A stretch of DNA of 64,000 bases from Whitmania pigra (Eukaryota > Annelida > Clitellata > Hirudinida > Haemopidae). Location: the NCBI GenBank assembly GCA_021613335.1, contig JAJTWR010000431.1, forward strand, positions 310,001 through 374,000, in the 5' to 3' direction. Position 1 is the stretch's first letter. Each line of letters starts with the position of its first letter. The translations under genes and the position numbers were made by a program. The notes under the pieces were generated by a model, which ran no database searches, had not been told where the DNA came from, and saw only the letters and a list, made by a program, of their open reading frames with translations. Below are positions 29,320-44,817 of this stretch, one piece after another.

Positions 29320-30513
29320 ATGTCCCCGCTGCTGCTTTCTGCTTCTACCGCCACCACTTGCCTCGGACGCGGCCTGGACGCGACTTGGGCTGCGCTGCGT
29401 GACAACCGCAGCGGCCTTGCCCCCTGCGCTTTTGAAACTGTCGTGCTCGACACTTGGGTTGGCGAAATCCCCGGCGTCGACGACGTCGCCTTGCCGAACC
29501 ACCTTGCCGACTACGATTGCCGCAATAACCGGCTCGCCCAATTCGCGCTGGAAGCCGACGGATTCACTGATAGCGTCCACAAAGCCATCGCCCGTTTCGG
29601 CAAGACGCGGGTCGGCGTCTTCCTCGGCACTAGCACTGCGGGCATTCTCCAGACCGAACTCGCATACCGCCGCCGCGACCCGGCCACTGGCGCCCTGCCC
29701 GACGACTTCAACTACCGCACTACGCACAATTTCTTTTCCGTGGCCGAGTTTGCCCGCAATTATTTCGGTCTTCAGGGCATGGCCATGACCATTTCCACTG
29801 CTTGTTCGTCCAGCGCAAAGGTCTTTGCCGCCGCCGCTCGGCAACTGGCCTGTGGGACCATTGATGCAGCACTGGTCGGCGGTGTCGACTCGCTGTGCCT
29901 GACGACTCTCTACGGCTTCTCATCCCTGCAACTGACCTCAGCGACGCCCTGCAAGCCCTACGACCCCGCTCGCAACGGCATCTCGATTGGCGAGGGTGCT
30001 GCCTTCGCTCTCCTCGAACGCGCTCCGGCCTCGCCCGTCGCCGGTTCTGTCCTGCTGCTGGGGACCGGCGAATCGAGCGACGCCCACCACATGTCGTCTC
30101 CGCATCCGGAAGGCCTCGGAGCGCGTCTAGCGATGGGAGCGGCCCTGCGCTCGGCGGACCTCCAGCCCGCCGACATCGGCTACTTGAACCTCCATGGTAC
30201 GGGTACGCCAGCCAACGATGCGGCGGAAGGCAAGGCGGTCGCCGCGCTTTTCGGCGACCGCGTCCCTTGCAGCTCGACCAAAGGAGCCACCGGCCACACC
30301 CTCGGAGCGGCCGGCGCCGTCGAAGCAGTGATCTGCGCCCTCGCCTTGAGGAATGACCTTATCCCCGGCAGTCCGCAGACCAACTACCGGGACCCGGCCA
30401 TCATCGTGGATTACGTCCTGCGGCCGCGTCCGGCCGCCTTTCGCCGCGCCCTGAGCAATTCCTTTGGCTTTGGCGGCAGCAATTGCAGCCTCATCCTGGG
30501 AGTCGCCGCATGA
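29320..30513 (+). CDS. Aryl polyene ketosynthase (ApeO-like beta-ketoacyl-ACP synthase)
   Basis: 397-residue type II ketosynthase that condenses the growing aryl-polyenoyl chain with malonyl-ACP. Catalytic residues are in place: C162 (S-T-A-C-S-S-S), H292 (H-G-T-G-T), K321 and H326 (K-G-A-T-G-H). It is followed, with a four-base overlap, by a ketosynthase-like subunit without catalytic Cys; this KS-CLF adjacency is why I call it ApeO-like rather than ApeR-like. First gene of the + strand arm of the cluster. Confidence 0.85.
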   Translation: MSPLLLSASTATTCLGRGLDATWAALRDNRSGLAPCAFETVVLDTWVGEIPGVDDVALPNHLADYDCRNNRLAQFALEADGFTDSVHKAIARFGKTRVGVFLGTSTAGILQTELAYRRRDPATGALPDDFNYRTTHNFFSVAEFARNYFGLQGMAMTISTACSSSAKVFAAAARQLACGTIDAALVGGVDSLCLTTLYGFSSLQLTSATPCKPYDPARNGISIGEGAAFALLERAPASPVAGSVLLLGTGESSDAHHMSSPHPEGLGARLAMGAALRSADLQPADIGYLNLHGTGTPANDAAEGKAVAALFGDRVPCSSTKGATGHTLGAAGAVEAVICALALRNDLIPGSPQTNYRDPAIIVDYVLRPRPAAFRRALSNSFGFGGSNCSLILGVAA

Positions 30514-31352
30514 ACCCGCCGCTCACCGCTTGGATCGAAGGCATCGGCATGATCGCCCCCGGCCTGCCCGACTGGCCCGCCGCACGCGCCGTGTTGCGCG
30601 GCGAAAGGGCTTATGTTGGCGAGCCCTCTGTGCTGCCGGCACCGGCCATCCTGCCGCCGGCGGAACGCCGCCGCGCCAGCCGCCTTGTCAAACTGACCCT
30701 CGGCATCGGACTGGAAGCCGCCCAAAACGCGGGGGCCGACGTCTCTACTCTGGCCACGGTGTTTTGCTCCTCCTCCGCCGATGGTTACAACTGCCATGCC
30801 TTGTGCGAACAACTGGCGACTGACGATCGCCAAATCTCGCCGACCCGTTTCCACAATTCTGTCCATAACGCTGCCGCCGGCTACTGGAGCATCGCCACCC
30901 ACAACATGGCGCCTTCCCAGGTGATTTGTGCCTTTGACGCCAGTTTCGGCGCCGGTCTGCTCGACGCGCTCGGCCAGGTCGCCGTCGATCGGCAACCAGT
31001 GCTGCTCATCGCCTACGACAGCGAATACCCCGAACCGCTGAACTCGAAGCGAACCACGCCGTGTTGCGGCGTTGCCCTGGTGCTGACGCCGACGCGCACC
31101 GAACGCGCGCTCGCGACTATGAACGTGCGTACCGACACCGAAACGGCCGAGCACCTTGACGACGCCGAGCTGGAAGGGCTGCGGCTCACCACCCCGTCCC
31201 TGCGCAGTCTACCCCTGCTGCGCCAACTAGCCCGTGGTGAGGCTGGCTGCGTTGTGCTCGACTACCTGCCACCGTTGCAACTGCGTGTTGACCTAGAGCC
31301 AGTGATCTTGCAATCCGTCGAAGATCAACCACGCGGGCTGCTGCCATGTTAG
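30510..31352 (+). CDS. Chain-length-factor-like ketosynthase subunit (ApeC-like)
   Basis: 280 residues, shorter than a full ketosynthase. The region matching the active-site loop reads C-A-F-D-A-S-F-G-A-G, so the catalytic Cys is absent, and the His-His pair is also missing. This is the pattern of the beta-ketoacyl synthase N-terminal-like/CLF proteins that pair with ApeO in aryl polyene synthesis and set chain length. ATG at 30510 overlaps the upstream stop. Overlaps the dehydratase gene by seven bases. Confidence 0.8.
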   Translation: MNPPLTAWIEGIGMIAPGLPDWPAARAVLRGERAYVGEPSVLPAPAILPPAERRRASRLVKLTLGIGLEAAQNAGADVSTLATVFCSSSADGYNCHALCEQLATDDRQISPTRFHNSVHNAAAGYWSIATHNMAPSQVICAFDASFGAGLLDALGQVAVDRQPVLLIAYDSEYPEPLNSKRTTPCCGVALVLTPTRTERALATMNVRTDTETAEHLDDAELEGLRLTTPSLRSLPLLRQLARGEAGCVVLDYLPPLQLRVDLEPVILQSVEDQPRGLLPC

Positions 31353-31789
31353 ACCGCGCCGCCATCGCTACCCGGATCCCGCACCAGGGCTTGATGTGCT
31401 TGCTCGATGCCGTGCTCGAATCTTCGGACACGAGCATCACGTGTCGGGCAAGCAGCCATCGCGATCCGGATAATCCGCTGCGGGCGAACAGTCGCCTCGG
31501 CGCCGCAAACGGCATCGAGTATGCCAGCCAAGCGATAGCACTGCACGGTGGCCTACTCGCCGGGGAGGATGTACCGCCGCGTCAGGGCTATCTCGCCAGC
31601 GTACGCAGCGTCGCGCTCCACGTAGCCCGTCTCGATGATGTGCCCGGCGACCTGATTGTCCGCGCCGAGCGCATCTCCGGTGACGACAACCATATCCTCT
31701 ACCAATTCTCGATAGAACACGACGCTCGCTGCCTCCTCGACGGACGCCTCGCGGTCATCCTCGATGCCAAGTCCCTCGCAAAGGAATAG
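31346..31789 (+). CDS. Hotdog-fold 3-hydroxyacyl-ACP dehydratase (ApeP-like)
   Basis: 147 residues. Begins with I-P-H-Q-G-L-M-C-L-L-D, the signature of ApeP/FabZ-like dehydratases in aryl polyene clusters, which remove water from the 3-hydroxyacyl-ACP to give the conjugated double bond. ApeP usually forms a heterodimer with ApeI; the ApeI-like partner here is the N-terminal domain of the fusion at 39777-41015. Tightly packed between the CLF and ketoreductase genes. Confidence 0.82.
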   Translation: MLDRAAIATRIPHQGLMCLLDAVLESSDTSITCRASSHRDPDNPLRANSRLGAANGIEYASQAIALHGGLLAGEDVPPRQGYLASVRSVALHVARLDDVPGDLIVRAERISGDDNHILYQFSIEHDARCLLDGRLAVILDAKSLAKE

Positions 31790-31792
31790 CTC

Positions 31793-32512
31793 ATGAAACG
31801 CGCACTCGTTACCGGCGGCAGCGGAGGTCTCGGCGCTGCAATCAGCCAGCGCTTAGCCACCGACGGACTGCACGTCTTCGTCCATGCAAACCGCAACCCC
31901 GACAAGATGAAGGCAGTGGTCGATGCCATCCGCACCGCCGGCGGCAGCGCCGAACCGGTGTCTTTTGACGTCACCGACCGCAGCGCCACCGCCGCAGCTC
32001 TCGAGGAACTGCTCACCTCGGGGCCAATCCAGATCCTAGTCAACAACGCCGGTATTCACGACGACGCCGTTTTCCCCGGCATGACCGGTGAACAATGGGA
32101 TCGCGTACTCGATGTTTCGCTGAACGGCTTCTTTCATGTGACCCAGCCGCTCATGTTGCCGATGATCCGCACCCGCTGGGGCCGCATCATCACGATTTCC
32201 TCAATCGCTGGCATCGTCGGCAACCGCGGCCAGGTCAATTATGCCGCGGCAAAAGGTGCCCTGCATGCGGCAACGAAGTCCCTATCGCTGGAAGTAGCCA
32301 GCCGTGGCATCACGGTCAATGCCGTGGCGCCCGGCATCATCGCGACCGACATGATCGAAGGCGCTTTCAACGCCGAGGCCATCAAAGCGCTGGTGCCCAT
32401 GAAGCGAGCCGGTCGTCCTGAGGAAGTCGCCGAGCTCGTTGCCTTCCTCGCATCGGAACGCGCCGCCTATATCTCCGGCCAGGTGATCTCGATCAACGGC
32501 GGGATGATCTAG
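31793..32512 (+). CDS. 3-oxoacyl-ACP reductase (ApeQ/FabG-like)
   Basis: 239-residue short-chain dehydrogenase. Shows the NADP site T-G-G-S-G-G-L-G, N-N-A-G, catalytic Ser (I-S-S-I-A-G) and Y-x-x-x-K (N-Y-A-A-A-K). Reduces the 3-keto group in each extension round. Last gene of the + strand arm; only 25 bases separate its stop from the convergent antiporter stop. Confidence 0.88.
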   Translation: MKRALVTGGSGGLGAAISQRLATDGLHVFVHANRNPDKMKAVVDAIRTAGGSAEPVSFDVTDRSATAAALEELLTSGPIQILVNNAGIHDDAVFPGMTGEQWDRVLDVSLNGFFHVTQPLMLPMIRTRWGRIITISSIAGIVGNRGQVNYAAAKGALHAATKSLSLEVASRGITVNAVAPGIIATDMIEGAFNAEAIKALVPMKRAGRPEEVAELVAFLASERAAYISGQVISINGGMI

Positions 32513-32537
32513 GCCGTCACAGCGGGACACCCGGCGT

Positions 32538-33734
32538 TTATTCCACGTGAATGAGCTCGCGCAGACGGGCGAGTTTCGGCGCTACCATCGGAACAGTCAG
32601 CATCGTGCTGGCGACAGCCATCAAGAGAAGAGCCGTGAAGGTTTCGCTGGTGATGATCTGCCTATCGAGCAGGATATTGACGAAAATAATCATGATCAGC
32701 GCTTTGGTCTGCAATAGCCAGCCAATGATGCTGGCTTCGCCCGGTGCCCAGCCGAGAATACGGCCTGCTAGCCGGATGCCGAGCAACTTGCCAGTGACCG
32801 ACGCGACCAACAGCACTGCCGCCGCGATGAACACCGCAGTGCCTCCGACGCTCCAGTTGGTACGGAGGCCGGTCGATAGGAAAAAGACCGGCATCACGAC
32901 GAGAAGCACGTGGTGGCGTAATTGGTCCATCTTTTCCTGGTTGAACCAATCGGCTTCCATACTGACGCCGGCAAGAAAGGCGCCGACCATGAAATGCAGG
33001 CCGGACCAGTCGGCCCCGAAGGCGACAGCGGCCAGCCAGATCAGCGCGGCGTGCCAACGATCGCGCTCGGCTAGGTGACGCATGAGTCGACGGAAGAGCA
33101 CTGCCGCCACGGCAAAAGTGAAGAGGAAGGCGAGCTGCCGACTGAGTCGTTCCCAGTCCATCAGGATCAGCGCCAATACGCCCCAGATGGCGATATCGTC
33201 GATGCTTGCGTAGCGCAGAATACGCTGACCCATTGGCTGGCGCAGGATCTCGAGTTTCTCCATCAACAGCATCAGGATCGGCAACGCCGTCACCGCGCAG
33301 GCCATTCCGATTCCGACGACGAATTGCCACGTCAGCGCCTTGGGTCCCATCCAACCATCGAAACCGAGCATCAGGACCGCCGCGACACAGCCGAAGAGCA
33401 GCGGCGTACCGAGCGCCAACCCTGCAGTGAGGCTGCTCTCGCGTCGATGCGTCCATGCCTTGCGGAGATCGAGCTCAATGCCAGCGATCATCACGAAGAG
33501 CATCGCCGCCCACCAAGCGATGCCGTTCAAGGACTGCACGACTGGCGGACTGAACACGAAGCGGTAATAGCTGGGGTACAAGTGACCGAGAATGCCCGGC
33601 CCGAGCAAAATGCCAGTGATGATCTGAACGACGACCAGTGGTGCAAAGTAATCGGTCTTGCCGAACCGCCAGATGAGGAAGGGCACAGTGAAGATGATCG
33701 TCATCGCGAGTAGGAAGATTTCGGTGACGTTCAT
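32538..33734 (-). CDS. Cation:proton antiporter (CPA2/Kef-type membrane domain)
   Basis: 398 residues, almost entirely hydrophobic, with about twelve membrane helices of the Na/H exchanger family (Pfam Na_H_Exchanger type). It ends after the membrane domain, with no TrkA-N nucleotide-binding tail. ATG 33734 overlaps the stop of the glycosyltransferase (ATGA) and matches a sensible helix start; the frame is open 69 bases further upstream. Its presence as the last gene of the pigment operon is unusual; ion or pH coupling to export is only a guess. Confidence 0.85.
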   Translation of the reverse strand: MNVTEIFLLAMTIIFTVPFLIWRFGKTDYFAPLVVVQIITGILLGPGILGHLYPSYYRFVFSPPVVQSLNGIAWWAAMLFVMIAGIELDLRKAWTHRRESSLTAGLALGTPLLFGCVAAVLMLGFDGWMGPKALTWQFVVGIGMACAVTALPILMLLMEKLEILRQPMGQRILRYASIDDIAIWGVLALILMDWERLSRQLAFLFTFAVAAVLFRRLMRHLAERDRWHAALIWLAAVAFGADWSGLHFMVGAFLAGVSMEADWFNQEKMDQLRHHVLLVVMPVFFLSTGLRTNWSVGGTAVFIAAAVLLVASVTGKLLGIRLAGRILGWAPGEASIIGWLLQTKALIMIIFVNILLDRQIITSETFTALLLMAVASTMLTVPMVAPKLARLRELIHVE

Positions 33735-34486
33735 GAAAACCTGCGAACGATCATGCGCGGCAAATGCAGCAGGAAACCCAGAAACAGCCGGGCATGCATC
33801 CACGTGAGGAGCGTGTTGTCGCGCAGGTAGCGGAAATGGGAAACGCCACCTTCATCAGCCCGGAAATAGCGAACCGGAGCATCGAGATTGACAGGTCGTA
33901 CACCCGCCCAGCACAGACGTACGACGGCTTCCGGATCGAAATCGAAGCGGCGCATGAAACGGTTCGTTCCCATGATGCGCAGTAGTGGTGCGATTGGATA
34001 GACGCGAAATCCATACAGCGAATCACCAATTCCTATCCACAGTGTCTCGAGATTGGCCCAGGTATTCGAGACCTTGCGACCGATGACTCGCAATGCCGGT
34101 GCATGGGCATCGAAGACCGGCTTACCGAGCACCATCGCCGTCGGATCGGACTGCGAGGCGGCCATAAAGGTGGGAATGAGGTCGGCTGGGTGCTGGCCGT
34201 CTGAATCCATGGTCAAGGCATGCGTGAAGCCCGCAGCAGCAGCCTGGGTGATGCCTTCGAGTACTGCGGCCCCCTTCCCGCGGTTTTCCGGAAGCACGAT
34301 AACCGTCAACCCGACGACCTTGCTCGCTAGGCTCTGAAGCTGCTCGGGACTGCCGTCGGTGCTTCCATCGACGACGACCCAAACCGGCGACCACTGTTCG
34401 AGGGCTGCGAGAACGGTACCGACCACCCTAGGACCGGGGTTGTAACTTGGAATAAGGACGAGGTGGGTTCTGGAAGGTTCAGGCAT
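33731..34486 (-). CDS. Family 2 glycosyltransferase
   Basis: 251 residues of the GT-A fold: P-S-Y-N-P-G at the start, V-V-V-D-G-S-T-D-G-S for the nucleotide, and M-D-S-D-G-Q-H-P for the metal-binding DxD. A C-terminal amphipathic/hydrophobic segment suggests membrane association. Glycosyltransferases of this kind recur in aryl polyene clusters, where they probably build the lipid or sugar carrier to which the polyene is esterified; the substrate is unknown. Confidence 0.82.
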   Translation of the reverse strand: MPEPSRTHLVLIPSYNPGPRVVGTVLAALEQWSPVWVVVDGSTDGSPEQLQSLASKVVGLTVIVLPENRGKGAAVLEGITQAAAAGFTHALTMDSDGQHPADLIPTFMAASQSDPTAMVLGKPVFDAHAPALRVIGRKVSNTWANLETLWIGIGDSLYGFRVYPIAPLLRIMGTNRFMRRFDFDPEAVVRLCWAGVRPVNLDAPVRYFRADEGGVSHFRYLRDNTLLTWMHARLFLGFLLHLPRMIVRRFS

Positions 34487-34495
34487 GCTGATCGA

Positions 34496-35260
34496 TCATA
34501 GAGCGGTGCACGCTAGCGCCTGGCGGAAGTAAGCGTCGAGCTCTCGAGTGAAGGTCACGACATCCTCCGGGGGCGCGAAACGGCGGCCGAGGCGGATGCG
34601 ACAATTGAGCGGCAGACTGGGCCTCCGGAATAAGGGCCAGTCCTTACCTAGGTAGGGCGTCGAATACTCGATCAGCAGGGTCTGCACGGGGATACCAGCG
34701 CGCTTGGCGATAAGGCCAGTGCTTGCCGTGCATGGATTGAGCGGAAAGGTCGTCGTCCGGGTCCCTTCGGGAAACATCAACAGGTGCGCACCGTCGCGAA
34801 GTTCATCGCGGGCGAAGAGGATCATCTTGAGGGGCGCATTGTTTCGGATATATCGAGCGAGCCGGGTGGCTGAGCCAAACAGGATGCTATCCATCAAGTT
34901 CGCCTTCATCACGCATACGGCATTCGGCAGGCAAGAAATGACGAGCACTGCATCGAGCAATGAGGGGTGGTTCGCTGCTAGGATCACCGGCCCCTCAGAC
35001 CTCAACGCCGCCAGTCCCCGGAGGTCGAAACGACAGGCACAGATCGTTTGCAACAACCCACAGTAAATTCGGGAACCGACCATCAACGCGAAGCGGCCAA
35101 GGCGCTGAGCGGCACGGCGCGGTAGCAACAGCTCACAGAGCAGTGAGACTGGTAACCAGACAAGACAAATGATAGCCAGTCCGGAAAGGCCGATCGCCAT
35201 AGCCAGCGACTCATACAGTCGCCACGCTGGCGACACGTCGTCCCGAATCCGGTCAACCAT
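34496..35260 (-). CDS. Lysophospholipid-type acyltransferase (PlsC-like)
   Basis: 254 residues from ATG 35260, overlapping the flavin-enzyme stop by eight bases. A hydrophobic helix at about residues 18-45 is followed by the LPLAT motifs A-N-H-P-S-L-L-D (HX4D) and F-P-E-G-T-R-T. It would acylate a glycerolipid-like acceptor at the inner membrane. Together with the second acyltransferase domain at 39777-41015, the cluster has two acyl transfer steps, in keeping with a polyene plus fatty acid ester lipid. The in-frame stretch upstream of 35260 overlaps the flavin gene and is not translated. Confidence 0.82.
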   Translation of the reverse strand: MVDRIRDDVSPAWRLYESLAMAIGLSGLAIICLVWLPVSLLCELLLPRRAAQRLGRFALMVGSRIYCGLLQTICACRFDLRGLAALRSEGPVILAANHPSLLDAVLVISCLPNAVCVMKANLMDSILFGSATRLARYIRNNAPLKMILFARDELRDGAHLLMFPEGTRTTTFPLNPCTASTGLIAKRAGIPVQTLLIEYSTPYLGKDWPLFRRPSLPLNCRIRLGRRFAPPEDVVTFTRELDAYFRQALACTAL

Positions 35261-36569
35261 CGATCGCGCGAATGTTGTACCGACGCTGCTTCCAGCCCAT
35301 GAAGGCACGCTTCGGCTGGACGATGTTGGCGATGTAGTAGAGCAGCTTGAACATCCAGACCGACCGCCAGATAGGCGTCTTTCCAAATATATCTCCAGCG
35401 AGGACGGACAGCAGCGCCTCTTTGACCCGGAAAATATTCTTCGGATACATGAAGAAGTCGCGCATGATCGGATTGGTCACGCGATAGATGAACCATGAGA
35501 ACTGCTTCGGGCCATGCTTCATCAGCTTGTCGAAACGCTTCATCGCTGCCTGTGCTGCGGCCGGGTCACGCAGGCAAGTATCGATAGCCTCAGCACCGAT
35601 GACACCGCTGTTCATTGCCAGCAGCACACCGGATGAAAACACCGGGTCAATGAAGGCGTAGGCGTCGCCGAGCAACAGGTAGTTCGAGCCGTGGTTGCGG
35701 TCCGATACATAGGAATAATTACCGGTCGCCTCGACCTCGTTGATGAGCTTCGCCGATTTCAACCGCTCCGCCAGCGCAGGGCACATGGCGATGCCGTCCA
35801 TCAGAAACTTCTCAATGCTGCGAGTGCTCTTGGATTTCGAAAAATAGGGCCAGGTCACCATGCCGATGCTGGTGACGTCGTTCGTCATCGGGATGAACCA
35901 GAACCAACCGTGATCGAACCAAAAAATGGTGATGTTGCCCTCGGCCGTGCCCTCATGCCGGCGGGCACCGGCAAAATGGCCGTAAAATGCCGCACTGTTA
36001 TGCTTTGGATTGCGGTGCTTGATCTGGAAACGGTTGGCGAGAAAGGTGTCGCGCCCTGAGGCATCCACGACGAACCGTGCATGCCATTCGGCTTTGCGGC
36101 CATCATCGTATTGGGCACGCACGACAGCCGAATTGTCCGGGAGAAAATCAACCGTCTCGGCCTTGCATTGCTCATGTACTTCAACGCCCTTGCGTTCCGC
36201 ATTGCGAATCAGGATGTTATCGAATTCGTCGCGTTTGACTTGGTAGGCGTAAGGCATGGATTTGTCCCAAGCTTCTGCAAAGTTGAAGACCTGCGACATG
36301 TTATGGTGTGGTGAAACGAACTCGGCGCCGGGCTTGACCATGCCGATGGCGCGTACTTCATCGGTGATGCCCATCCGCTCGAACAATGGAAGGTTCGCGG
36401 GCAACAGCGATTCGCCAATATGAAAGCGCGGGTGACGGTGTTTTTCCAACAAAACTACCCGATACCCTTTTTGGACTAACATCGGTGCCACCGTTGTTCC
36501 GGCGGGCCCCCCACCAATGACCAGAACGTCGCACTGACCGCGCGCCATGGTTTTTGCTTGCTCTTCCAT
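35253..36569 (-). CDS. FAD-dependent oxidoreductase with flavin-halogenase motifs
   Basis: 438 residues. FAD-binding G-G-G-P-A-G at residues 19-24, a G-E-S at 52-54 and Lys79 (M-V-K-P-G-A-E-F) in the position of the halogenase catalytic Lys, then W-F-W-F-I-P at 222-227, which satisfies the WxWxIP signature of flavin-dependent halogenases, and F-I-D-P-V-F-S-S-G at 306-314, matching their tunnel motif. A related aromatic hydroxylase is the alternative, as many cluster-borne members of this family are annotated only as NAD(P)/FAD oxidoreductases. The likely substrate is the aryl head group or ACP-bound chain. AAGGG precedes the ATG. A separate flavin reductase is not in the cluster. Confidence 0.75.
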   Translation of the reverse strand: MEEQAKTMARGQCDVLVIGGGPAGTTVAPMLVQKGYRVVLLEKHRHPRFHIGESLLPANLPLFERMGITDEVRAIGMVKPGAEFVSPHHNMSQVFNFAEAWDKSMPYAYQVKRDEFDNILIRNAERKGVEVHEQCKAETVDFLPDNSAVVRAQYDDGRKAEWHARFVVDASGRDTFLANRFQIKHRNPKHNSAAFYGHFAGARRHEGTAEGNITIFWFDHGWFWFIPMTNDVTSIGMVTWPYFSKSKSTRSIEKFLMDGIAMCPALAERLKSAKLINEVEATGNYSYVSDRNHGSNYLLLGDAYAFIDPVFSSGVLLAMNSGVIGAEAIDTCLRDPAAAQAAMKRFDKLMKHGPKQFSWFIYRVTNPIMRDFFMYPKNIFRVKEALLSVLAGDIFGKTPIWRSVWMFKLLYYIANIVQPKRAFMGWKQRRYNIRAIDG

Positions 36570-36859: not shown

Positions 36860-39211
36860 TCAGCCATCTGCGTGGGAATTCGATGATTCAAGGGCTCCTC
36901 GAGGTAGGAAGGCGGCGGACAGAATCAACACAATGATAGTGCCCGGCCCTACCGTGGCACCCACGGCGTGCAGTACCGGCACCTTGGACAGCGTCAGCGT
37001 TCCGAAGCCGATCGCTGTCGTCACGTTGGCGAGCAGCATTGAAGCCAACGTCTGCGGCTCAAGACGACCGTCATGCCCAGCCTTCTCGAAAAACAGCGCG
37101 TAATTGGAGCCGACAGCGACAATGAGCAGCATTCCGACCAAGTGCAGTAGGTGCAGCCGTTCGCCGAGTAGATGAAGAGCAGCGATGACGAACAGGATAG
37201 AAAGCCCCAGCGGCATCAGCACGCTGCCGAGGCGGCGGGCGGAGCGCAGACTGACGGCGAGCAACAGGGCAATCGCCAAGACACCACCGAGTGCCAAGGC
37301 TATCGCCTCTCGCAGATAACCGTCGTAGAGCCGGTTGACTTCGGCCTTCATGTCGATGAACAGGGCACCGGAGTTGGCCAGTGCCGTGCGGATCCGTGCC
37401 GGGTCGATATCCCGGGCGCTGGGGCGTAACGGCAGCAAGACACTCCAGCTTTCGCCATGGCCGACGAGCAGAGAATCGACGGCGAGCGCAAGGCTAGTGC
37501 CGGCCAGCGCCGGGCGATCAATCAGCGCTTCTCGGCGGGCCGACGCAACGTCGTCAAGAAAGCCGCCGACCTTGCCGATCGACAGTGGCGACCCGGCGAG
37601 TGCCCCACCCAGGGCTTGCTTCAGGTCGGCGGTTGCGGGCAGGCTCGCCCGCCGGGCTTCCTGGGTCCGCTTGCTCGGGAGGAATCGGACGGGCGTGTCG
37701 TATGCGGACAAGGCACCCTCCCCGACCAGCGCATCGAGCCGTGGCCCGACCTGCTCGGCCGCCTGCAATGCGCTTTCGCGGTCCGCCGCACGGACGACGA
37801 CCAGGTAACGCGCATCCGGTGCGCCGAGATCTTTGCGCAGCGCCATGTCCCGGTCCAACTCGGCTTGCGAGATGGTGCTCAAGGACGACAGATCAGAACT
37901 CCACAAACTGCCGTGCTGGAGGAGCAGCATGATGAGAGCGGCTATGGCGAGTATGAGCGTCGGCCAGCGCAAGACAGCGGCACCGCGCACGAGGCGTCCA
38001 CATTGGCGCCCGATAGGTGCTAGGTCGCGCAGGCGGGGTGTCGTGGTACTCAGCAGCGGCAGGACGAAGTACGTGACAAGCGCAGCGACGAGAACGCCGG
38101 TCAGGGCATAGAGTCCGAGTTGGGAGAGGCCCGGAAAGTTGGAGAGCAGCAGCACACCAAAGCCGAACACCGAGGTCAGCACGCCGAGGCGAACGGTGGG
38201 CCAGAAACGGCGACGCCAATCGACGAGTCCGCCGCTATTCGACTGGACGAAGTAATAGATGGCATAGTCGACCGATTCGCCGATCAGCGCCGTGCCGAAG
38301 CCGACGGTGATGCCGAAGATGGTGCCAAAGGCGAGGCTGACTGCGACGATGCCAGCGAGCGCGCCGGAAGCCACCGGCAGCAGGCTGAGCGCGAGCAGTC
38401 GGGAGGAACGGTAGACGAGCCAGAGCAGCACAACGATCGCGAAGGTGCTGATGGCCGACAAGCGGGTCACTTCCTCCTTGATCGTGGCGCGGGAATGAAC
38501 AGCGAACCCCCCGGGGCCAGACACCAGCACGTCCAGCGCCTGAAGACCGAGTGTTGTACGGGACTCGGCAAACGCGGCCTCTATCTGTGCGATGGCAGAT
38601 TCTTGGCCATCGGTGTCGGAACCGAGCGCTCGTGTCTGCACCAGCAATATTGCCCGCTCGCCGTCGTACGAGGCCCAGACGCCTTCCCGGCTATCGGGCT
38701 GGGCGTTGGCGTCGAGGCCACGCAGGATACTGAGCATCTCGCCGGTTGGGTCGCGCGGCAGCAACGACTTGAGCATCATGCCGAGGGGCGAGGCAATCAG
38801 TTCGACGCTTTCGGCGATCGCCTGGCGCAATCCGGCCTCCGTGAAACGCTGAGGAGTGACCGAGGGACTGAGCAGGTAGCGATGGCGGAACAGATAGTCG
38901 CGATCGACGGCTAGGTTGCTAGGTTCGCCGTTTTGGACGCTGAGATAGGCCGGATTGGCGGAGAGGCGCGACCGCAGCTCTCGCGAGAGTTCGGCGCGCT
39001 GCTGGGCGTTGCCGCCGCTGATGGCGATCATCAGCAAACGCGACACGACGCCCTCCCTCAATTGGTCCACGAGGACCTGCTGCTCTGCGGTCGGTTTGGC
39101 CGGCATGAAGAAGGACATGTCGGCCGTGAAGTGGCTATTCCAGACAACGGCCGCCCCGACCAGCATGGCCAAGAGCCAGAGAAGGAGGGCGCGACCGCGA
39201 GACATCGTCAT
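36860..39211 (-). CDS. MMPL/RND-family exporter (aryl polyene lipid transporter)
   Basis: 783 residues with the MMPL layout: one helix, a periplasmic domain (about 30-245), five helices (about 250-400), a second helix at about 420 and periplasmic domain, then five more helices to about 775. Such transporters sit in most aryl polyene clusters and are thought to move the lipid-linked pigment from the inner membrane toward the outer membrane. Its ATG overlaps the stop of the LolA-like gene by four bases, implying a shared job with that carrier. Confidence 0.88.
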   Translation of the reverse strand: MTMSRGRALLLWLLAMLVGAAVVWNSHFTADMSFFMPAKPTAEQQVLVDQLREGVVSRLLMIAISGGNAQQRAELSRELRSRLSANPAYLSVQNGEPSNLAVDRDYLFRHRYLLSPSVTPQRFTEAGLRQAIAESVELIASPLGMMLKSLLPRDPTGEMLSILRGLDANAQPDSREGVWASYDGERAILLVQTRALGSDTDGQESAIAQIEAAFAESRTTLGLQALDVLVSGPGGFAVHSRATIKEEVTRLSAISTFAIVVLLWLVYRSSRLLALSLLPVASGALAGIVAVSLAFGTIFGITVGFGTALIGESVDYAIYYFVQSNSGGLVDWRRRFWPTVRLGVLTSVFGFGVLLLSNFPGLSQLGLYALTGVLVAALVTYFVLPLLSTTTPRLRDLAPIGRQCGRLVRGAAVLRWPTLILAIAALIMLLLQHGSLWSSDLSSLSTISQAELDRDMALRKDLGAPDARYLVVVRAADRESALQAAEQVGPRLDALVGEGALSAYDTPVRFLPSKRTQEARRASLPATADLKQALGGALAGSPLSIGKVGGFLDDVASARREALIDRPALAGTSLALAVDSLLVGHGESWSVLLPLRPSARDIDPARIRTALANSGALFIDMKAEVNRLYDGYLREAIALALGGVLAIALLLAVSLRSARRLGSVLMPLGLSILFVIAALHLLGERLHLLHLVGMLLIVAVGSNYALFFEKAGHDGRLEPQTLASMLLANVTTAIGFGTLTLSKVPVLHAVGATVGPGTIIVLILSAAFLPRGALESSNSHADG

Positions 39212-39780
39212 TGGAGTTCAATCGGTTCGATGCTCATCACCGAACGGTCGCCGTCGGCTTGCAGAAACTCGATGCGCTGTACCTGACCACGGGCGCCGCT
39301 GACGATGATACGTTGCACGATAGCAGCAAGCTTCACGTCCTTCGGTTCCAGAGTGAGCACCCACTTCTCCGCCGTACCGACGAGGGAGAGCGTGAAGTTC
39401 TTTTCCAGTGTCGTCCGGTCGCCGGTCATCGTGCAGCGGATACTGTCGACGAAGGCAAGCACTTCCGGCTGATTGGCGAGGCGGATGGTCCGCTTCTGTC
39501 GCCCGCGCTCAATGGTCATCGTGCCCTTGTCGAGCCATAGGATTTCCGGTTTTGGACTGAGCGTCCGCTTTTCGAGGCGATCCGGCGCCGTGTAGCTCAG
39601 CTCGCCGCTCGAGACGACCGGCTTATCGAGCAGACTGATGTATTTCTTTTCAACAAAACGGGCGCGGCCGCCTTTGTGACGTGACAATTCGACCATGAGC
39701 TGGTCGATGTCGTCAGCAGCAAGAGCCGGAGTGCAATGCACCAAGTATATGAGGACTGCAAAGAGAGCGCTTCGGGTCAT
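39208..39780 (-). CDS. LolA-like periplasmic lipid carrier
   Basis: 190 residues with a signal peptide ending in P-A-L-A-A (about residue 21). The mature part matches LolA-type outer-membrane lipoprotein carrier folds, with an R-A-R-F-V-E-K-K-Y start and repeated beta strands. In aryl polyene clusters a LolA-like protein is paired with the MMPL exporter and probably shuttles the pigment lipid across the periplasm. Overlaps neighbours on both sides by four bases. Confidence 0.82.
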   Translation of the reverse strand: MTRSALFAVLIYLVHCTPALAADDIDQLMVELSRHKGGRARFVEKKYISLLDKPVVSSGELSYTAPDRLEKRTLSPKPEILWLDKGTMTIERGRQKRTIRLANQPEVLAFVDSIRCTMTGDRTTLEKNFTLSLVGTAEKWVLTLEPKDVKLAAIVQRIIVSGARGQVQRIEFLQADGDRSVMSIEPIELQ

Positions 39781-41015
39781 GGTGTGTGCCAGAAGTCGAA
39801 GAAATTAAACCAATTGTAGGGTGCGATGCGGCAATAATGGGCTAGGCGATCGACATACAACTGCTGTGCCGCCCGGATGGCCGCGTCGTGGTGTTCACGA
39901 GACGTGTCTGTGAAGTCGGCGAGCGGCTCGAAGTGGATCTGGTAGCGATTGCCGAACAGGTAGAGCCCGGTCATGAAGAACACTGGCCGTCGCAACATCG
40001 CAGCCATGCGGAACGGCCCGAGCGGAAACAGTGCCGGCTCGCCAAGGAAATTCCAGGCGACCATAGTATCGCCACCGAGTCCGCGATCGGCCAGCAGGCC
40101 AACGAGGTAACCGGCGTCCAGCTTGTCTCGTACCTGCAGCATCGAATCCATGCGGCCGAGCGAGATAATGTCCTCCGTAGCCGCCGGATGAATGGCCGCT
40201 AGCGTCGCGTTGATCTTGCGAGCGTTTTCTTCGACCATCAGCATGGCCACCTTGAGACCAGCCTGGGTGCGCCCTGCCGCGCGCAGGACTTCGAAACTTC
40301 CGAGATGTGCGCCAAACAAGAGGGCGCCGGACCCTTTGGCGAGGGCCGCTTGCAGCGCCTCCGATCCGATTATCTCGATATCGAACAACTCGAATCGACC
40401 GTTCAGCAAGTAGACGCGGTCGTGGATGGTACTCGCGAAACTCAACACGTGTCGGAAACCATCTGACCATTCGGCCGAGCGCCCGAGCGCCCGGCGCAGG
40501 TAGTCGCGGCTGTAGCGCCGCGCCCGCGGCGCAAACAACACGTAGTAGCTGGCAATGCCGTAGAGCACGAGACGGGCGATGCGGCGGCCGAAGGTTAACG
40601 AGATCCACGCCATCAACCTGAGGATGGCCTGATTGCTCTTTTCCTGCTGGCGCAGCCAATCGGCATTGCCCGGTTTTTCCCTGCCCCTGGTGTGTGGGGG
40701 CGCAAGGCTTATCTCGTGAACGGGCGACAGACTGCCGGAAGCGACGGCGCGATCCCCAGCGCGAACGGTGAAGGTGAGTGCCCCGCTGGATTTGGTGTCG
40801 ACAGTGAAGGTCAGCACTTCGCCGGGACCGACCGGGCTCAGAAACTTGGCGTTGCCGATCTGCCAGCGGGCGACGGAATGGCCGAGGGTCGTTTCGGCAA
40901 AACAGATTGCTTGGTCAAGCAGGACGACGCCGGGCACGATCGGGCGACCCGGGAAATGGCCTGCAAAGGCAGGATGATCCACCGGTACTTGCCAATAGAA
41001 GTCAACGGCCGGCAT
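39777..41015 (-). CDS. Fusion of ApeI-like dehydratase and LpxL-like acyltransferase
   Basis: 412 residues. Residues 1-105 are a FabA/FabZ-type hotdog domain with catalytic His20 in H-P-A-F-A-G-H-F-P-G and V-P-G-V-V-L-L-D-Q. After a short Arg/Gly linker, residues about 120-412 form an LPLAT of the LpxL/HtrB type, with F-G-A-H-L-G-S-F-E (HX4E) and L-L-A-D-R-G. In many clusters these are separate genes. The fused protein would couple the last dehydration with transfer of the polyene to a lipid, though that coupling is inference. The stop of this gene overlaps the LolA-like start. Confidence 0.82.
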   Translation of the reverse strand: MPAVDFYWQVPVDHPAFAGHFPGRPIVPGVVLLDQAICFAETTLGHSVARWQIGNAKFLSPVGPGEVLTFTVDTKSSGALTFTVRAGDRAVASGSLSPVHEISLAPPHTRGREKPGNADWLRQQEKSNQAILRLMAWISLTFGRRIARLVLYGIASYYVLFAPRARRYSRDYLRRALGRSAEWSDGFRHVLSFASTIHDRVYLLNGRFELFDIEIIGSEALQAALAKGSGALLFGAHLGSFEVLRAAGRTQAGLKVAMLMVEENARKINATLAAIHPAATEDIISLGRMDSMLQVRDKLDAGYLVGLLADRGLGGDTMVAWNFLGEPALFPLGPFRMAAMLRRPVFFMTGLYLFGNRYQIHFEPLADFTDTSREHHDAAIRAAQQLYVDRLAHYCRIAPYNWFNFFDFWHTP

Positions 41016-42345
41016 GGCCGATTTTCTCTTGGTAGAGTTGTTCTAGGCGATCTCGGGGCAATTTGCCGGTGCTGTTGCGCGGAATGGCATCGACCCGTAT
41101 CAGTGGCCGAGGCAGGAAGATCGGATCAATGCGTGGGCGCAAAGAGGCAATGATGTCTTGCGTGTCTAGGTCGGGAGCAACGACGAAGGCGCATAGCCGG
41201 GTGATGCCATTGGGTGCGGTGTCATCGGGGAGAAAGAACGCCGCATCGACGACACCGGGAATGGCGACGATCTGGTGATTGAGGTAGGCGATCGAGGTGC
41301 GCTTGCCGGCGATATTCACGACGTCTGCATGGCGGCCGTGCAGCAGGAATTGTCGGTCGTTGATCAACTCGATGATGTCAGACAACGGGATGCGCTCCTC
41401 GACGTGGCCATCAATCGCCGTCGTCATATCGTTCGTCTGTTCAAAACGCACACCGTCGAGCAGGGTCCAGACTGGTCCGTCCGTCGTGCGGCGGCTAGCT
41501 GTCTGGCCGGTCTCGGTAGAACCGTAGATTTCAAAAAGCGGCGCACCGAAACAGTGTTCCGCCTCCTCGGCAAGCTGCGCAGATAGCGGCGCCGTTGCCG
41601 ACAACACCAGTTTCACGGCCGGCAGTTCAAGGCCGGAGGATAGCAAGGTCGATAGGTGGAAAGGCGTCGTCACCAGCATGCGTGGTTCGGGGACCGCTCG
41701 GAGCGCAGCTACGATATCCTGTGGATAAAATGGAATGCCCGACCAGAAAGGCGCATAGCCCAGCAGCGCGAGCATCAAGGTCCATTCGAAACCGTAACTG
41801 TGCTGCGTCGGCACGGTGCCTACCACGGTATGACGGCTATCCAAGAGGCAGAGCCTCTGGGCGCCGATGCGGCCATTGCGGATGAAGCGACCCCAGTGCT
41901 TTACGTGCGGCATCGGGCGACCAGTCGAGCCGGACGTGAATAGAATGGCGACGATGTGCTCGGCAGGCACACTCGGAATCTCAACGATGGCGGCCGGATC
42001 GGCATCCGTCAGGGCCGGGAAGTCGAGGCACGGTAGGTCGAGACAGTCGAATTCTCCGTCGCGTAGACAGGTGACGTCGGGATAATCGGCTTTTATCTGG
42101 CGAATCGTTTCTGGCGATTGCGAGGACGGTTGCAGGCTAACCCGTTCTGATAACAACCCGGCCGCGAGACCGACTACGAAGTGGTACCGGTCTTGGCAGA
42201 CATTGAGCAAATATCGTCCGGGAGGCAGGCGCCGTTTCAGAGCGTGAACATCGGCGAGCATGTCGCGAACGAGTATTGGCCCTTCCTGGCGCCAGGCAAA
42301 AAGTGCGTCGAGGGAGTCGTGCCCGAGCAGCGGAATAACAGTCAT
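41002..42345 (-). CDS. Acyl-activating (AMP-binding) ligase, ApeH-like
   Basis: 447 residues of the ANL superfamily. P-loop-like motif F-T-S-G-S-T-G-R-P, the Y-G-S-T-E-T-G motif, G-R-H-A-D-V-V-N-I-A-G-K hinge region and C-terminal N-S-T-G-K-L-P-R-D with the catalytic Lys. It would adenylate 4-hydroxybenzoate or a related aryl acid and load it on an ACP as the starter unit. It is about 50-100 residues shorter than many acyl-CoA ligases, as is common for ApeH. No gene for making the aryl acid is in the cluster. Confidence 0.82.
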   Translation of the reverse strand: MTVIPLLGHDSLDALFAWRQEGPILVRDMLADVHALKRRLPPGRYLLNVCQDRYHFVVGLAAGLLSERVSLQPSSQSPETIRQIKADYPDVTCLRDGEFDCLDLPCLDFPALTDADPAAIVEIPSVPAEHIVAILFTSGSTGRPMPHVKHWGRFIRNGRIGAQRLCLLDSRHTVVGTVPTQHSYGFEWTLMLALLGYAPFWSGIPFYPQDIVAALRAVPEPRMLVTTPFHLSTLLSSGLELPAVKLVLSATAPLSAQLAEEAEHCFGAPLFEIYGSTETGQTASRRTTDGPVWTLLDGVRFEQTNDMTTAIDGHVEERIPLSDIIELINDRQFLLHGRHADVVNIAGKRTSIAYLNHQIVAIPGVVDAAFFLPDDTAPNGITRLCAFVVAPDLDTQDIIASLRPRIDPIFLPRPLIRVDAIPRNSTGKLPRDRLEQLYQEKIGHAGR

Positions 42346-43001
42346 GAATGATTACCCAGCGGCGCCTCACGTCGGCGCATGACGGTGCGAAAACCGCGAA
42401 TAGTGTCGGCGATTGTTGTGCGATCTTCCGGCGGCAGGAGCCAATGACGGCACAGATGTTCGCCGATGAACATCAGGGCAAGCAGCGGTACAGCCAACAT
42501 GTGGGAGAAGATCGACCAAACGGTCGGAGAGGTCAGCCAGAACAGGGCCGCTGAGACCAGCGCTGTGAGGAGAAAATACAGGGTCCAACCGACTGTCACA
42601 CGGCGGGTATACCGTTCCTTGACCGGTGAAATGACGCCGCCGTGCGCGGCTCGGGCGAAGCGAGTGATAAGCGCTACACGGCCGCCGAACAATGTTTGCC
42701 CGAACATCGCACCGAGCGCCAAGTTAGTGCCGACATGCTGAATGCAGTACACCATGGCGATATTGCCGCGCAACGCAGGCCAACACCAGGCAACCAATCC
42801 GCCGCCAAGAGCGAACCACAGCGGCTGACCGCTCCGCCATATCATCGTGCCAAAGATGGCGGCGAAGGGCGCTATGGCGACGGCTAGTGATAGATCCGGT
42901 GGTGCATCGCCGGCGCTGCCGACATGGGAAAGCACCGCCCAGGCCACCACCACAGCCAGCATCGCGAAGCTCCGCAAGATAGCGGCCGGCACCCAGTTCA
43001 T
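42342..43001 (-). CDS. COG4648-type membrane protein (ApeG-like)
   Basis: 219 residues with about five or six membrane helices, of the COG4648 family that recurs in aryl polyene and related resorcinol/lipid clusters. Function not established; a role in membrane assembly of the biosynthetic complex is possible. Overlaps the ligase and the ACP genes by four bases each. Confidence 0.75.
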   Translation of the reverse strand: MNWVPAAILRSFAMLAVVVAWAVLSHVGSAGDAPPDLSLAVAIAPFAAIFGTMIWRSGQPLWFALGGGLVAWCWPALRGNIAMVYCIQHVGTNLALGAMFGQTLFGGRVALITRFARAAHGGVISPVKERYTRRVTVGWTLYFLLTALVSAALFWLTSPTVWSIFSHMLAVPLLALMFIGEHLCRHWLLPPEDRTTIADTIRGFRTVMRRREAPLGNHS

Positions 43002-43282
43002 TTTGTCCGCTGGCTTGCGATGTAGGCAGTCAGTGCGCGCAGCGAGGAAAAAATGCGGACGTTGCCCTCATTGTCGGATTTGAGTTGGAATCCATAGCGC
43101 TTTGAGATTACCAGCGCGATTTCGAGAGCATCGATCGAGTCTAGGCCGAGCCCGTCACCGAAGAGCGGCGCATCCGGCGCGATATCTTCGGGCGCTATTT
43201 CTAGGTTGAGGGATTTGATGATCAAGCCGGCGACTTCCGGCAGCAGGGCATCGATGGTTTCGGGAGCGATTTCTGGGGCCAT
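42998..43282 (-). CDS. Acyl carrier protein with DSID site
   Basis: 94 residues of the phosphopantetheine-binding fold. Attachment Ser49 lies in G-L-D-S-I-D-A-L-E-I. One of two ACPs in the cluster; by position next to the membrane protein and ligase it may carry the aryl starter or the growing chain. No phosphopantetheinyl transferase is encoded in the cluster, so a host enzyme must modify it. Confidence 0.9.
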   Translation of the reverse strand: MAPEIAPETIDALLPEVAGLIIKSLNLEIAPEDIAPDAPLFGDGLGLDSIDALEIALVISKRYGFQLKSDNEGNVRIFSSLRALTAYIASQRTK

Positions 43283-43303
43283 GGCGTCTCTTCCGTTGGT
43301 GAA

Positions 43304-44548
43304 TTAAGGCGGCGCGCGGAAGGCTAGTACAGCATTGCTTCCGCCGAAGGCGAAGGAGTTTGAGAGTGCAGCCCGTAACCGCGGAGGGCGGCGGGCGCTG
43401 GTGACATGATCGACGCCGGCGCAGGCGGGATCGAGGGTTTCGAGGTGAGCAGTGGGCGGGATGGCACCGTCGCGCAGTGCAAGAATCGTGATGATTGCCT
43501 CAATGGCACCGGTTGCGCCCAGTTGATGCCCATGCATCGACTTCGTTGCACTCACTGGCAGGCGCTCTGCGCGATCGCCGAATACCTGTTTTAGGGCTTC
43601 GACTTCGATGGGGTCGCCTTCGCTGGTGGCAGTACCATGGGCATTGACGTAATCGATATCCTCCGGCACGAGGCCGCCGTCGGCTAAGGCAGCGGCGATC
43701 GCCCTCGCCTGCCCGGCCGCGTCTGGACGTACCAAGTGGGTGTGGTCGCAACTGGTGCCATAGCCGACCATTTCTCCATGGATACGAGCACCGCGCGCTA
43801 CGGCATGATCCCAATTTTCGAGCACCAGGGCAGCGCCGCCCTCGGCCAGTACGAGTCCGGAGCGATCGGCAGCGAACGGTCGGCAGGACCGCGCGGCGGT
43901 TTCCTCGTCGCCCGTTGCCAAAACGCGAAGAGCTTCCCAAGCTCGGGCAACGCCGTAGGCCTGCGGCGCATCCGAACCGCCGGTGACCATGACCGGCGCC
44001 TCACCAGTGCGAACGCGGCGGAAGGCTTCCCCTATGGCGATGGCAGAGGAGGCGCAAGCCACCGTGTAGCTCATGCTGATTCCGCCCAGCCCAAGTTGGA
44101 TAGATATGTGCGCGTTGGCTGCGTTATTCATTCCGAGGATAACGGAGAGTGGTGATAGCCGTTCGCGCCCGTTCTGCCACAATTCGCGGTAACCGCGTTC
44201 ATAGATCAATTGACCACCGAGCGCCGTCCCCCAGGCGACCCCCCAGTTGTCGCGACCTTCGGTCGGCCCGCGCGCAAAGCCGACATCAGTCCAGGCCGCA
44301 AAAGCCGCAGCGGTGCCCAGTTGCGCAAAGCGGTCCATGGTGCCGGCCAGCGGTCGGCCAAGGGTGGCATCGGCGTCGAAACCTGGACAGCCGACAAAGG
44401 CCATAGCTAGCGGTCGAGGGCGATCCTCCGTCCGCAAGTAACGAACGGCGGACTCGCCAGCCAGCACTCGTTTGAAGAAATCCGCGAGGTCGCCCCCGTA
44501 TGGGCTGACAAGACCCAGCCCGGTAATCGCAACCCGATGCTGGCCCAT
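43304..44548 (-). CDS. Second beta-ketoacyl-ACP synthase (ApeR-like)
   Basis: 414 residues of the FabF class. Catalytic C165 (V-A-C-A-S-S-A), H304 (H-G-T-A-T), K336 and H341 (K-S-M-H-G-H-Q-L-G). Unlike the + strand ketosynthase it has no adjacent CLF. In aryl polyene systems the stand-alone ApeR enzyme is thought to perform the first condensation on the aryl starter or supply short primers. Lies between the two ACP genes. Confidence 0.85.
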   Translation of the reverse strand: MGQHRVAITGLGLVSPYGGDLADFFKRVLAGESAVRYLRTEDRPRPLAMAFVGCPGFDADATLGRPLAGTMDRFAQLGTAAAFAAWTDVGFARGPTEGRDNWGVAWGTALGGQLIYERGYRELWQNGRERLSPLSVILGMNNAANAHISIQLGLGGISMSYTVACASSAIAIGEAFRRVRTGEAPVMVTGGSDAPQAYGVARAWEALRVLATGDEETAARSCRPFAADRSGLVLAEGGAALVLENWDHAVARGARIHGEMVGYGTSCDHTHLVRPDAAGQARAIAAALADGGLVPEDIDYVNAHGTATSEGDPIEVEALKQVFGDRAERLPVSATKSMHGHQLGATGAIEAIITILALRDGAIPPTAHLETLDPACAGVDHVTSARRPPRLRAALSNSFAFGGSNAVLAFRAPP

Positions 44549-44551
44549 GCT

Positions 44552-44803
44552 TCAGGTTTGCGTGTTCTGCAGTTGGTCAGTCCGTAGCTGATCCATCAAG
44601 GCCACCAATTCACGGACAGTCTTGGGTGTTTTCAGATTTGTGGACAGCGTAATTCCAAAATGATCCTCAAATTCGAACATTAATTCGAGCATCATCAGCG
44701 AGTCGACGCCAACGTCTGCCAACACGGCGTCTGGAAGCATGGCCTCCACATTCACCCCTGGGCGGTCCTTGAGAAATTTACGAATAAGCTCCATCGATTC
44801 CAT
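44552..44803 (-). CDS. Acyl carrier protein with DSLM site, first gene of the minus-strand operon
   Basis: 83 residues; the attachment Ser35 is in G-V-D-S-L-M-M-L-E. Divergent from the other ACP, so the two probably serve different partners. Start at 44803 or an ATG nine bases further in; neither has a strong ribosome site. The promoter should lie in 44804-44880, where an inverted repeat is seen. Confidence 0.88.
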   Translation of the reverse strand: MESMELIRKFLKDRPGVNVEAMLPDAVLADVGVDSLMMLELMFEFEDHFGITLSTNLKTPKTVRELVALMDQLRTDQLQNTQT

Positions 44804-44817
44804 AGCCCAGAAATTCT

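Follow-up and report, generated by a model that had tools for sequence, protein, structure and literature searches.

How does a pigment gene cluster of betaproteobacterial type come to lie in a myxobacterial chromosome, and what would it start from once the gene for its starter enzyme is missing? The question is raised by positions 29320–44803 of a stretch of 64,000 nucleotides from the Whitmania pigra assembly GCA_021613335.1 (contig JAJTWR010000431.1, here C360, positions 310,001 to 374,000 of the forward strand; this whole stretch is referred to as the window), where an aryl polyene (APE) type gene set of 16 open reading frames (ORFs), all of them open (16/16), forms one contiguous block. 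We consider it likely that an arcuflavin/xanthomonadin-like APE cluster passed from a Dechloromonas/Azonexus-type betaproteobacterium to a Myxococcota chromosome, that one of its blocks is inverted relative to its relatives, that it was left with a truncated deacetylase gene and without a chorismatase gene, and that its aryl acid would most likely come from an external or alternative source.

Judged by its gene content, the block is an APE type II polyketide synthase (PKS) cluster, as an earlier sequence-only reading had proposed, because the gene families are present and the checked catalytic motifs are kept. A ketosynthase (KS) with its active-site cysteine adjoins a half-length chain-length factor (CLF) with the conserved glutamine; a ketoreductase (KR), two dehydratases (DH), two acyl carrier proteins (ACPs), a second KS (KS_O) and an AMP ligase are all present, as are a LolA-like carrier, an MMPL exporter and acyltransferases. 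That reading had counted seventeen genes, but the count is 16, with a dehydratase and an LpxL-like acyltransferase in a single fused ORF (39777–41015); the gene types it listed are there, while it left a halogenase-like enzyme (35253–36548) and a Na+/H+ exchanger (32538–33731) unnamed. The genes follow in map order, four in the plus-strand arm and the others in the minus-strand arm, with percentages giving protein identity to relatives.

29320–30513, plus strand: ketosynthase KS_R, ApeR/ArcK-like, active-site Cys in TACSSS (Pfam ketoacyl-synt; NCBIfam NF006618 over cut-off; 74–80%, active-site motif kept in 16/16)
30510–31352, plus strand: half-length CLF, ApeC/ArcJ-like, Gln in SQVICAFDASF (Pfam Ketoacyl-synt_2; PDB 7f28_A, E 3e-10, and 6qsp_B, E 3.3e-7; 65–75%)
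31346–31789, plus strand: dehydratase, ApeP/ArcI-like, assigned by a weak Pfam ApeP-like match (E 0.0044, below cut-off) and orthology (64–73% to same-position genes); a single PDB match, 6qsr_B, at E 0.14
31793–32512, plus strand: ketoreductase, ApeQ/ArcH-like (Pfam adh_short and NCBIfam FabG, over cut-off; 69–82%)
32538–33731, minus strand: Na+/H+ exchanger family protein, ArcG-like (Pfam PF00999; 72–84%)
33731–34486, minus strand: family 2 glycosyltransferase (GT2), ArcE-like (Pfam PF00535; 76–85%)
34496–35260, minus strand: PlsC-like acyltransferase, ArcD-like (Pfam PF01553; 60–68% in 17/20 relatives, one of the 17 partial)
35253–36548, minus strand: flavin-dependent halogenase-like enzyme, ArcA-like, with WFWFIP (Pfam Trp_halogenase; PDB halogenase 3e1t_A, E 1.2e-61)
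36860–39211, minus strand: MMPL/RND-type exporter, ApeM/ArcP-like (Pfam MMPL; 52–66% in betaproteobacterial loci)
39208–39780, minus strand: LolA-like carrier, ApeL/ArcQ-like (Pfam LolA_3)
39777–41015, minus strand: fused dehydratase (ApeI/ArcS-like) and LpxL-like acyltransferase (ArcR-like) (Pfam FabA, ApeI-like below cut-off, Lip_A_acyltrans)
41002–42345, minus strand: AMP-dependent starter ligase, ApeH/ArcT-like (Pfam AMP-binding; 53–71% in betaproteobacterial loci)
42342–43001, minus strand: membrane protein, ApeG/ArcU-like by position (39–59% to same-position betaproteobacterial genes; no Pfam match at E 0.1)
42998–43282, minus strand: acyl carrier protein 2 (Pfam PP-binding)
43304–44548, minus strand: ketosynthase KS_O, ApeO-like (Pfam; 75–82% to Dechloromonas/Azonexus loci)
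44552–44803, minus strand: acyl carrier protein 1 (Pfam PP-binding)

The motif check took in the KS, CLF, ACP, KR, ApeP-like DH, LpxL-like, PlsC, ligase, GT2 and halogenase proteins; for the fused ORF the sequences available from relatives covered the acyltransferase gene and not the ApeI-like half. Flavin-dependent halogenases are marked by an FAD motif, the motif WxWxIP and a lysine near the substrate site, and by its sequence the protein encoded at 35253–36548 carries these marks: among 64 aligned proteins GGGPAG is found in 63 and WFWFIP in all 64, and the lysine, which aligns with that of 3e1t_A, is held in the six commonest variants, making up 57/64. With this enzyme, the GT2, the PlsC and the Na+/H+ exchanger all linked to the PKS genes, the cluster resembles the arcuflavin/xanthomonadin-like subtype; the XanB2/ArcB-type chorismatase of that subtype is absent.

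The relatives of the cluster were sought by scanning genome contigs with KS_O, and among the titles of the best 80 loci (records of the window's genome or of very near ones being possibly excluded) there is no Myxococcota. Of these 80, 54 (L001–L053 and L065) match at 47–82% and have at least one other cluster gene alongside, the remaining 26 being FabF-like (39–44%) and without a cluster. By title, 45 of the 54 are betaproteobacterial, in the old sense that includes Thiobacillus and Hydrogenophilales, and nine carry other or broader titles (L005, L013, L016, L020, L026, L035, L036, L050 and L052). The halogenase-like protein is 81–88% identical to its best 120 relatives, those with organism names (82–84%) being mostly Rhodocyclales (Azonexus, Dechloromonas, Quatrionicoccus, Rhodocyclales bacterium, HGW-Betaproteobacteria), with one labelled Bacteroidota.

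Gene order was compared in 20 further stretches from 17 genomes, 15 of which have both blocks of the cluster on one contig. In 13 of the 15 a first block (ACP, KS_O, ACP, ApeG-like, ligase, DH/LpxL, LolA, MMPL) is accompanied by a second in which KS_R, CLF, DH and KR run head-on against the Na+/H+ exchanger, GT2, PlsC (not in every case), chorismatase and halogenase; of the other two, G008 agrees except that KS_R lies beyond the fetched DNA, and G018 (Hydrogenophaga) differs. The first block reads the same way on the window's opposite strand, and the second block, from KS_R to the halogenase, follows there inverted. The Dechloromonas/Azonexus clusters share its blocks, at 43–85% identity by gene (ApeG-like lowest), and differ by this inversion and by possessing the chorismatase and several other genes. 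Since the order is common to 13/15 relatives, the convergent arms and tailoring genes, which the sequence-only reading had singled out as special, are by this comparison inherited, and they are ordinary also among the arc genes as described in PMC3949708; the block inversion is the difference here. The PlsC gene was considered as a foreign replacement and ruled out, as a query with correct ends gives 60–68%, like the neighbouring genes.

The cluster is not complete-looking, as had been claimed, since the starter chorismatase and several other genes of the relatives are missing. The clearest gap is at one gene junction:

35253–35260, minus strand: halogenase/PlsC join, the site of the chorismatase (ArcB/XanB2 type) in relatives; the halogenase stop overlaps the PlsC start

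In 15/15 genomes of relatives an FkbO/Hyg5-like chorismatase (PF21168) match lies 24–187 nt from the halogenase match, and a chorismatase was found in 43/43 relatives searched, that is, in 20/20 chosen for KS_O and in 26/26 of a second set, three genomes being shared. The second set consists of all genomes with a halogenase-like match of at least 51% among 150 genomes from the family of G002. Within it the chorismatase is no more than 260 nt from the halogenase in 22/26, about 1.8 kb away in G033 and G094, about 78 kb away in G140 and on another contig in G048, so that linkage to the halogenase is not universal in the more distant members. Neither the window, where the best E was 1.2 and a candidate remnant was likewise rejected, nor the whole assembly gave a match. 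UbiC is likewise at zero in the assembly by a search that finds it in 16/20 relatives and in E. coli, and so is the Rv2949c-like lyase (PF01947), for which 3/14 control genomes were positive. The aromatic ammonia-lyase family (PF00221) has no match on C360 and 29 matches elsewhere in the assembly.

Four relatives (G004, G011, G014 and G018) possess the cluster and a chorismatase and were negative in the UbiC search. XanB2 is described as serving the supply of ubiquinone as well (PMC3949708), and in these four genomes the pigment chorismatase may feed ubiquinone too.

From homology, and with roles assigned after the descriptions in PMC8253772 and PMC3949708, the ligase would load an aryl acid onto an ACP, and KS/CLF, ketoreductase and the two dehydratases would build a conjugated polyene, which the acyltransferases and the glycosyltransferase would link to a lipid. 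The LolA-like and MMPL-like proteins would carry the presumably yellow pigment to the outer membrane, where it would protect against oxidants and light, and the flavin enzyme may halogenate the head group. Since the assembly searches turned up no recognised enzyme that makes hydroxybenzoate, it is most likely that the aryl acid would be supplied from outside the cell (by prey, host or neighbours) or would be another cellular aryl acid, and the pigment is expected to need such an imported or alternative acid. In the published account ArcB makes 3- and 4-hydroxybenzoate (3-/4-HBA) and the specificity of ArcT in vitro is loose (PMC3949708), which would allow a switch to another aryl acid; in Lysobacter, deletion of the chorismatase-like (XanB2-like) gene is reported to lower pigment by about 90%, and feeding 3-HBA to restore it (PMC3691225). 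We suggest, tentatively, that the bacterium may be a starter auxotroph, which would make pigment only from hydroxybenzoate of prey, host or neighbours, or else may use a new aryl starter, in which case its APE would bear an unprecedented head group.

The surroundings of the cluster belong to a different lineage. As the sequence-only reading had placed it, the block lies in a myxobacterial-type chromosome between the end of a type II secretion operon, in which GspD, GspE, GspF and GspN score over the model cut-offs, and a Bat-like operon; its claim that both flanks are broken holds for the right border stretch (44804–46654), which consists of degenerate pieces before the Bat-like operon, and fails for the left, where GspN is intact:

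28110–29105, plus strand: GspN, left neighbour, intact (TIGR04411 matched to position 280/280, E 1.6e-54)
44875–45403, minus strand: degenerate short-chain dehydrogenase pieces (two weak colinear Pfam adh_short pieces in different frames, E 0.036 and 0.11)
45803–46363, minus strand: MarR-like winged-helix fragment in a 186-codon open stretch that separates the dehydrogenase remnant from the Bat-like operon (weak, E 6.5e-6, below cut-off)
47553–48560, plus strand: BatA-like, right neighbour in the Bat-like operon (NF047508, E 1.1e-59, below the model cut-off)

Among the best 120 relatives of GspF on the left, those named by organism are all Myxococcota (Archangium sp., Myxococcaceae, Archangiaceae, Myxococcales, Myxococcota bacterium), and the same holds for PDH-E2 on the right with a single exception, Comamonas sp. 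JC664. Because the nearest relatives of these two proteins stand at 94% and 88% and identities then fall, within the best 120, to about 70% and 67%, we infer that the host is a poorly sampled lineage in or near Myxococcales. The contig extends over no less than 2.9 Mb, since a KS paralogue is found at 2,902,201, and it also carries a bacterial 16S gene. Repeats that could represent insertion ends were found as short pairs only, none of which brackets the cluster.

The relatedness of the cluster is thus discordant with that of its flanks, and trees give it a more precise position. Before tree construction the rows of four genomes were dropped, some KS_R rows being paralogues, and protein lengths were limited gene by gene to 0.75–1.25 of the window protein (0.7–1.3 for the outgroup tree). 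In a tree of 13 concatenated proteins from 20 taxa (6 to 13 proteins each, X_Halothiobac left out), the window joins Dechloromonas MAG-190 (G019, with 9 proteins) at an ultrafast bootstrap (UFBoot) value of 99. With 12 proteins, an arrangement that sets the window and eight others (including one titled Azonexus hydrophilus) apart from 11 genomes (Azonexus, Dechloromonas and one Accumulibacter) was rejected by the approximately unbiased (AU) test at 2.6e-70. A single-gene tree of the halogenase places the window inside a group of 12 sequences (support 0.97), among them G019 and a named Dechloromonas protein, the nearest being P0121 (88% identity, support 0.858).

Codon usage, for which a comparison with the flank genes had been proposed, differs as well: the pooled cluster has a distance of 0.269 to 29 flank genes, the largest value in 500 flank subsets being 0.136. 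Its distance to 28 donor cluster genes of G019 and G001 is 0.230, that between flanks and donors 0.351, and taken singly 10/16 genes are nearer to the donors; GC content at third codon positions is 0.716 in the cluster, 0.781 in the flanks and 0.779 in the donors. Such a pattern fits a foreign origin with partial adaptation. Transfer between phyla, the horizontal arrival of the sequence-only reading, is well supported by flank homology, gene order and trees. Transfer into the myxobacterium appears the simpler reading of its direction, because the halogenase occurs in 26/150 genomes of one betaproteobacterial family and there is no Myxococcota among the best 80 KS_O titles.

Several points nevertheless weigh against the explanation we favour. 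The two sets compared in the AU test were chosen after inspection of the tree, and the AU test did not reject a root on the window branch, outside all 19 betaproteobacteria (p 0.069; the single distant outgroup, Halothiobacillaceae, was represented by 7/12 proteins, and the program judged the 5000 replicates too few). The deep nodes of the outgroup tree are weak (UFBoot 42–63), the window branch (0.318, compared with 0.121 for its sister) is long enough that it could mean relaxed selection, and in 6/16 cluster genes codon use lies closer to the flanks than to the donors. The assembly may be incomplete, so a starter enzyme may have been missed, and unrecognised lyases may escape family searches. 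Finally, arcuflavin is reported to be non-brominated despite the halogenase gene in the arc cluster (PMC3949708), for which reason halogenation stays putative.

Of the other explanations, the one that survives best is that the starter is made within the cell after all, by an unrecognised enzyme or from genes on unassembled DNA, and this we hold possible, though with clearly less confidence than the transfer of a chorismatase-less cluster, with which it partly overlaps as the latter allows another cellular aryl acid. Two chorismate-binding enzymes are encoded on C360, the looseness of ArcT in vitro means that 4-aminobenzoate or other aryl acids might serve, and the possible incompleteness of the assembly also speaks for it. 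It has to be set against the fact that three lyase families are at zero in the assembly, though the same searches find chorismatase in 20/20, UbiC in 16/20 and the Rv2949c-like lyase in 3/14 of the genomes in which they were sought.

The main rival concerns function, and would see the cluster as a decaying arrival that makes no pigment, with starter and tailoring genes gone and the other ORFs merely still unbroken. Gene loss is visible beyond the chorismatase. Downstream of MMPL, relatives have an alpha/beta hydrolase gene followed by a polysaccharide deacetylase gene (L001), or the deacetylase directly (L036/L122), while the gap between the MMPL and halogenase genes (36549–36859) in the window contains:

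36699–36767, minus strand: 5' stub, some 23 codons long, of an ArcN-like polysaccharide deacetylase gene, MSRSWKPRPAVRLSIASHAAASL

Up to 14/23 residues of this stub are identical to L001; the 25 best of 24,515 Met-started 23-mers in L001–L053 all have the same M..xWxP start, and two of the stub-matching genes, tested against Pfam, are deacetylases. The loss of chorismatase and deacetylase, the absence of the relatives' DUF1615, hydrolase and methyltransferase genes from the 16 ORFs, and the long window branch speak for decay. We nevertheless regard it as unlikely, as 16/16 ORFs are open and the checked motifs are kept at 15–42% protein difference from the nearest relative, and as the halogenase/PlsC join is a clean overlap of stop and start. 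That the core is whole without its starter gene suggests that an APE call made from core genes can overstate function.

Two further features of the locus belong here. The fusion of dehydratase and acyltransferase is found only in the window, the 20/20 relatives examined having two genes in different frames, and could be mimicked by a sequencing indel. A candidate C-terminal remnant of a DUF1615 gene upstream of KS_R was rejected, its sole match of at least 9/20 in L001–L128 being the window's own DNA.

An old, vertically inherited Myxococcota APE cluster is very improbable. APE clusters have indeed been reported from other Myxococcota, namely from Enhygromyxa and Plesiocystis (PMC6226438), from Polyangiales and Palsa-1104 bins of activated sludge (PMC11821767) and from accessory genomes of Myxococcus/Pyxidicoccus (PMC9684338), so that the mere presence of this class in the phylum is not, as the sequence-only reading had thought, unexpected, and the root on the window branch is compatible with the outgroup test. 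Compared by description, these clusters share phylum and product class with the window; one is stated to resemble the E. coli/Vibrio type, and a second Enhygromyxa APE to have resembled no known cluster. The present cluster, however, matches Dechloromonas/Azonexus gene by gene (mostly 55–85%) and is placed among them in trees, its codon use is unlike that of the flanks, and the best 80 KS_O titles, with the possible exclusions given above, contain no Myxococcota. An assembly chimera of betaproteobacterial and myxobacterial DNA is the least credible of all, for although the assembly is large and, with two full bacterial 16S genes, seems to contain more than one bacterium, the cluster is flanked on either side by Myxococcota-like genes of the same long contig, the flank genes tested are not betaproteobacterial, and compared with the 15 ordered relatives the cluster has been rearranged and has lost genes.

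Among characterised systems the closest is the arcuflavin (arc) set of Azoarcus sp. BH72 (Rhodocyclales), described in PMC3949708, with counterparts of arcA, D, E, G, H, I, J, K, P, Q, R, S, T, U and V, the likeness, which includes halogenase, Na+/H+ antiporter and half-length CLF, resting on domain annotation and order with the BH72 genes compared by description. Set against that description, arcB (chorismatase), arcC (MipA), arcF, arcL, arcM (methyltransferase) and arcO are not among the 16 ORFs of the window, arcN is a stub only, and dehydratase and acyltransferase are fused; the arc genes of BH72 are given as two unlinked loci, whereas the window has one locus of 15.5 kb in another phylum. 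Arcuflavin itself is a hybrid of a polyene and a dialkylresorcinol, a product type that calls for dar genes as well. Of the Dechloromonas/Azonexus group, D. aromatica RCB is named in the same paper. The xanthomonadin cluster of Xanthomonas and the yellow pigment cluster of Lysobacter enzymogenes, as described in PMC3691225, share the half-length CLF next to a KS, two dehydratases, LolA and exporter; a halogenase gene is given for Xanthomonas and none for Lysobacter, and, unlike the window, both have the XanB2-type starter gene and a different gene order. The E. coli APE cluster shares the core KS, CLF, KR, DH, ACP, ligase, LolA and exporter functions, but its starter, 4-HBA, is made outside the cluster by UbiC, which was not found in the window's assembly, and its description in PMC8253772, as far as available, mentions no halogenase or Na+/H+ exchanger.

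APE clusters in Myxococcota and the arc gene set are thus already known. New, as far as our literature search shows, are the occurrence of a Rhodocyclales-type cluster on a chromosome of Myxococcota, its readable rearrangement and the missing starter synthase; no report of such a cluster in Myxococcota was found in a search that most subscription papers lay outside. A lipid-pigment assembly line can here be compared gene for gene on both sides of the divide between Betaproteobacteria and Myxococcota while the scars of rearrangement are still readable. Should the starter synthase truly be lost, one may ask whether an outer-membrane pigment can run on aryl acids that other organisms make and whether the substrate of the loading ligase is now a different one.

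Promoter and terminator predictions were rejected, with 3 found against 4.3 expected and 13 found against 15.9 expected, respectively. Genes for tRNA-Ala(GGC) and tRNA-Leu(CAA) are located at 57959–58228 (minus strand), 13 kb from the cluster and away from its borders. The 381 contigs of the assembly add up to 178,173,256 bases, a total that suggests an assembly of eukaryote size with bacteria living alongside. Bacterial-type 16S matches are full on C360 and C4 and partial on C235 and C184, so that several bacteria, two or more, seem to accompany a larger genome. Identical family-match scores recur across contigs (C53/C76/C262; C90/C105/C232; C4/C79; C38/C213), which suggests that these are duplicated or near-identical.

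Two relatives deviate in their own ways. Between KS_O and ACP2 the Hydrogenophaga cluster (L044, 11301–14648; G018:C28) contains a KS/CLF pair that is divergent (45% and 35%), as well as a further halogenase-like gene (25–27%). Aromatoleum tolulyticum (G017, L042) has KS_O and a chorismatase with no close halogenase (best 25%), and the halogenase block is therefore separable from the core.

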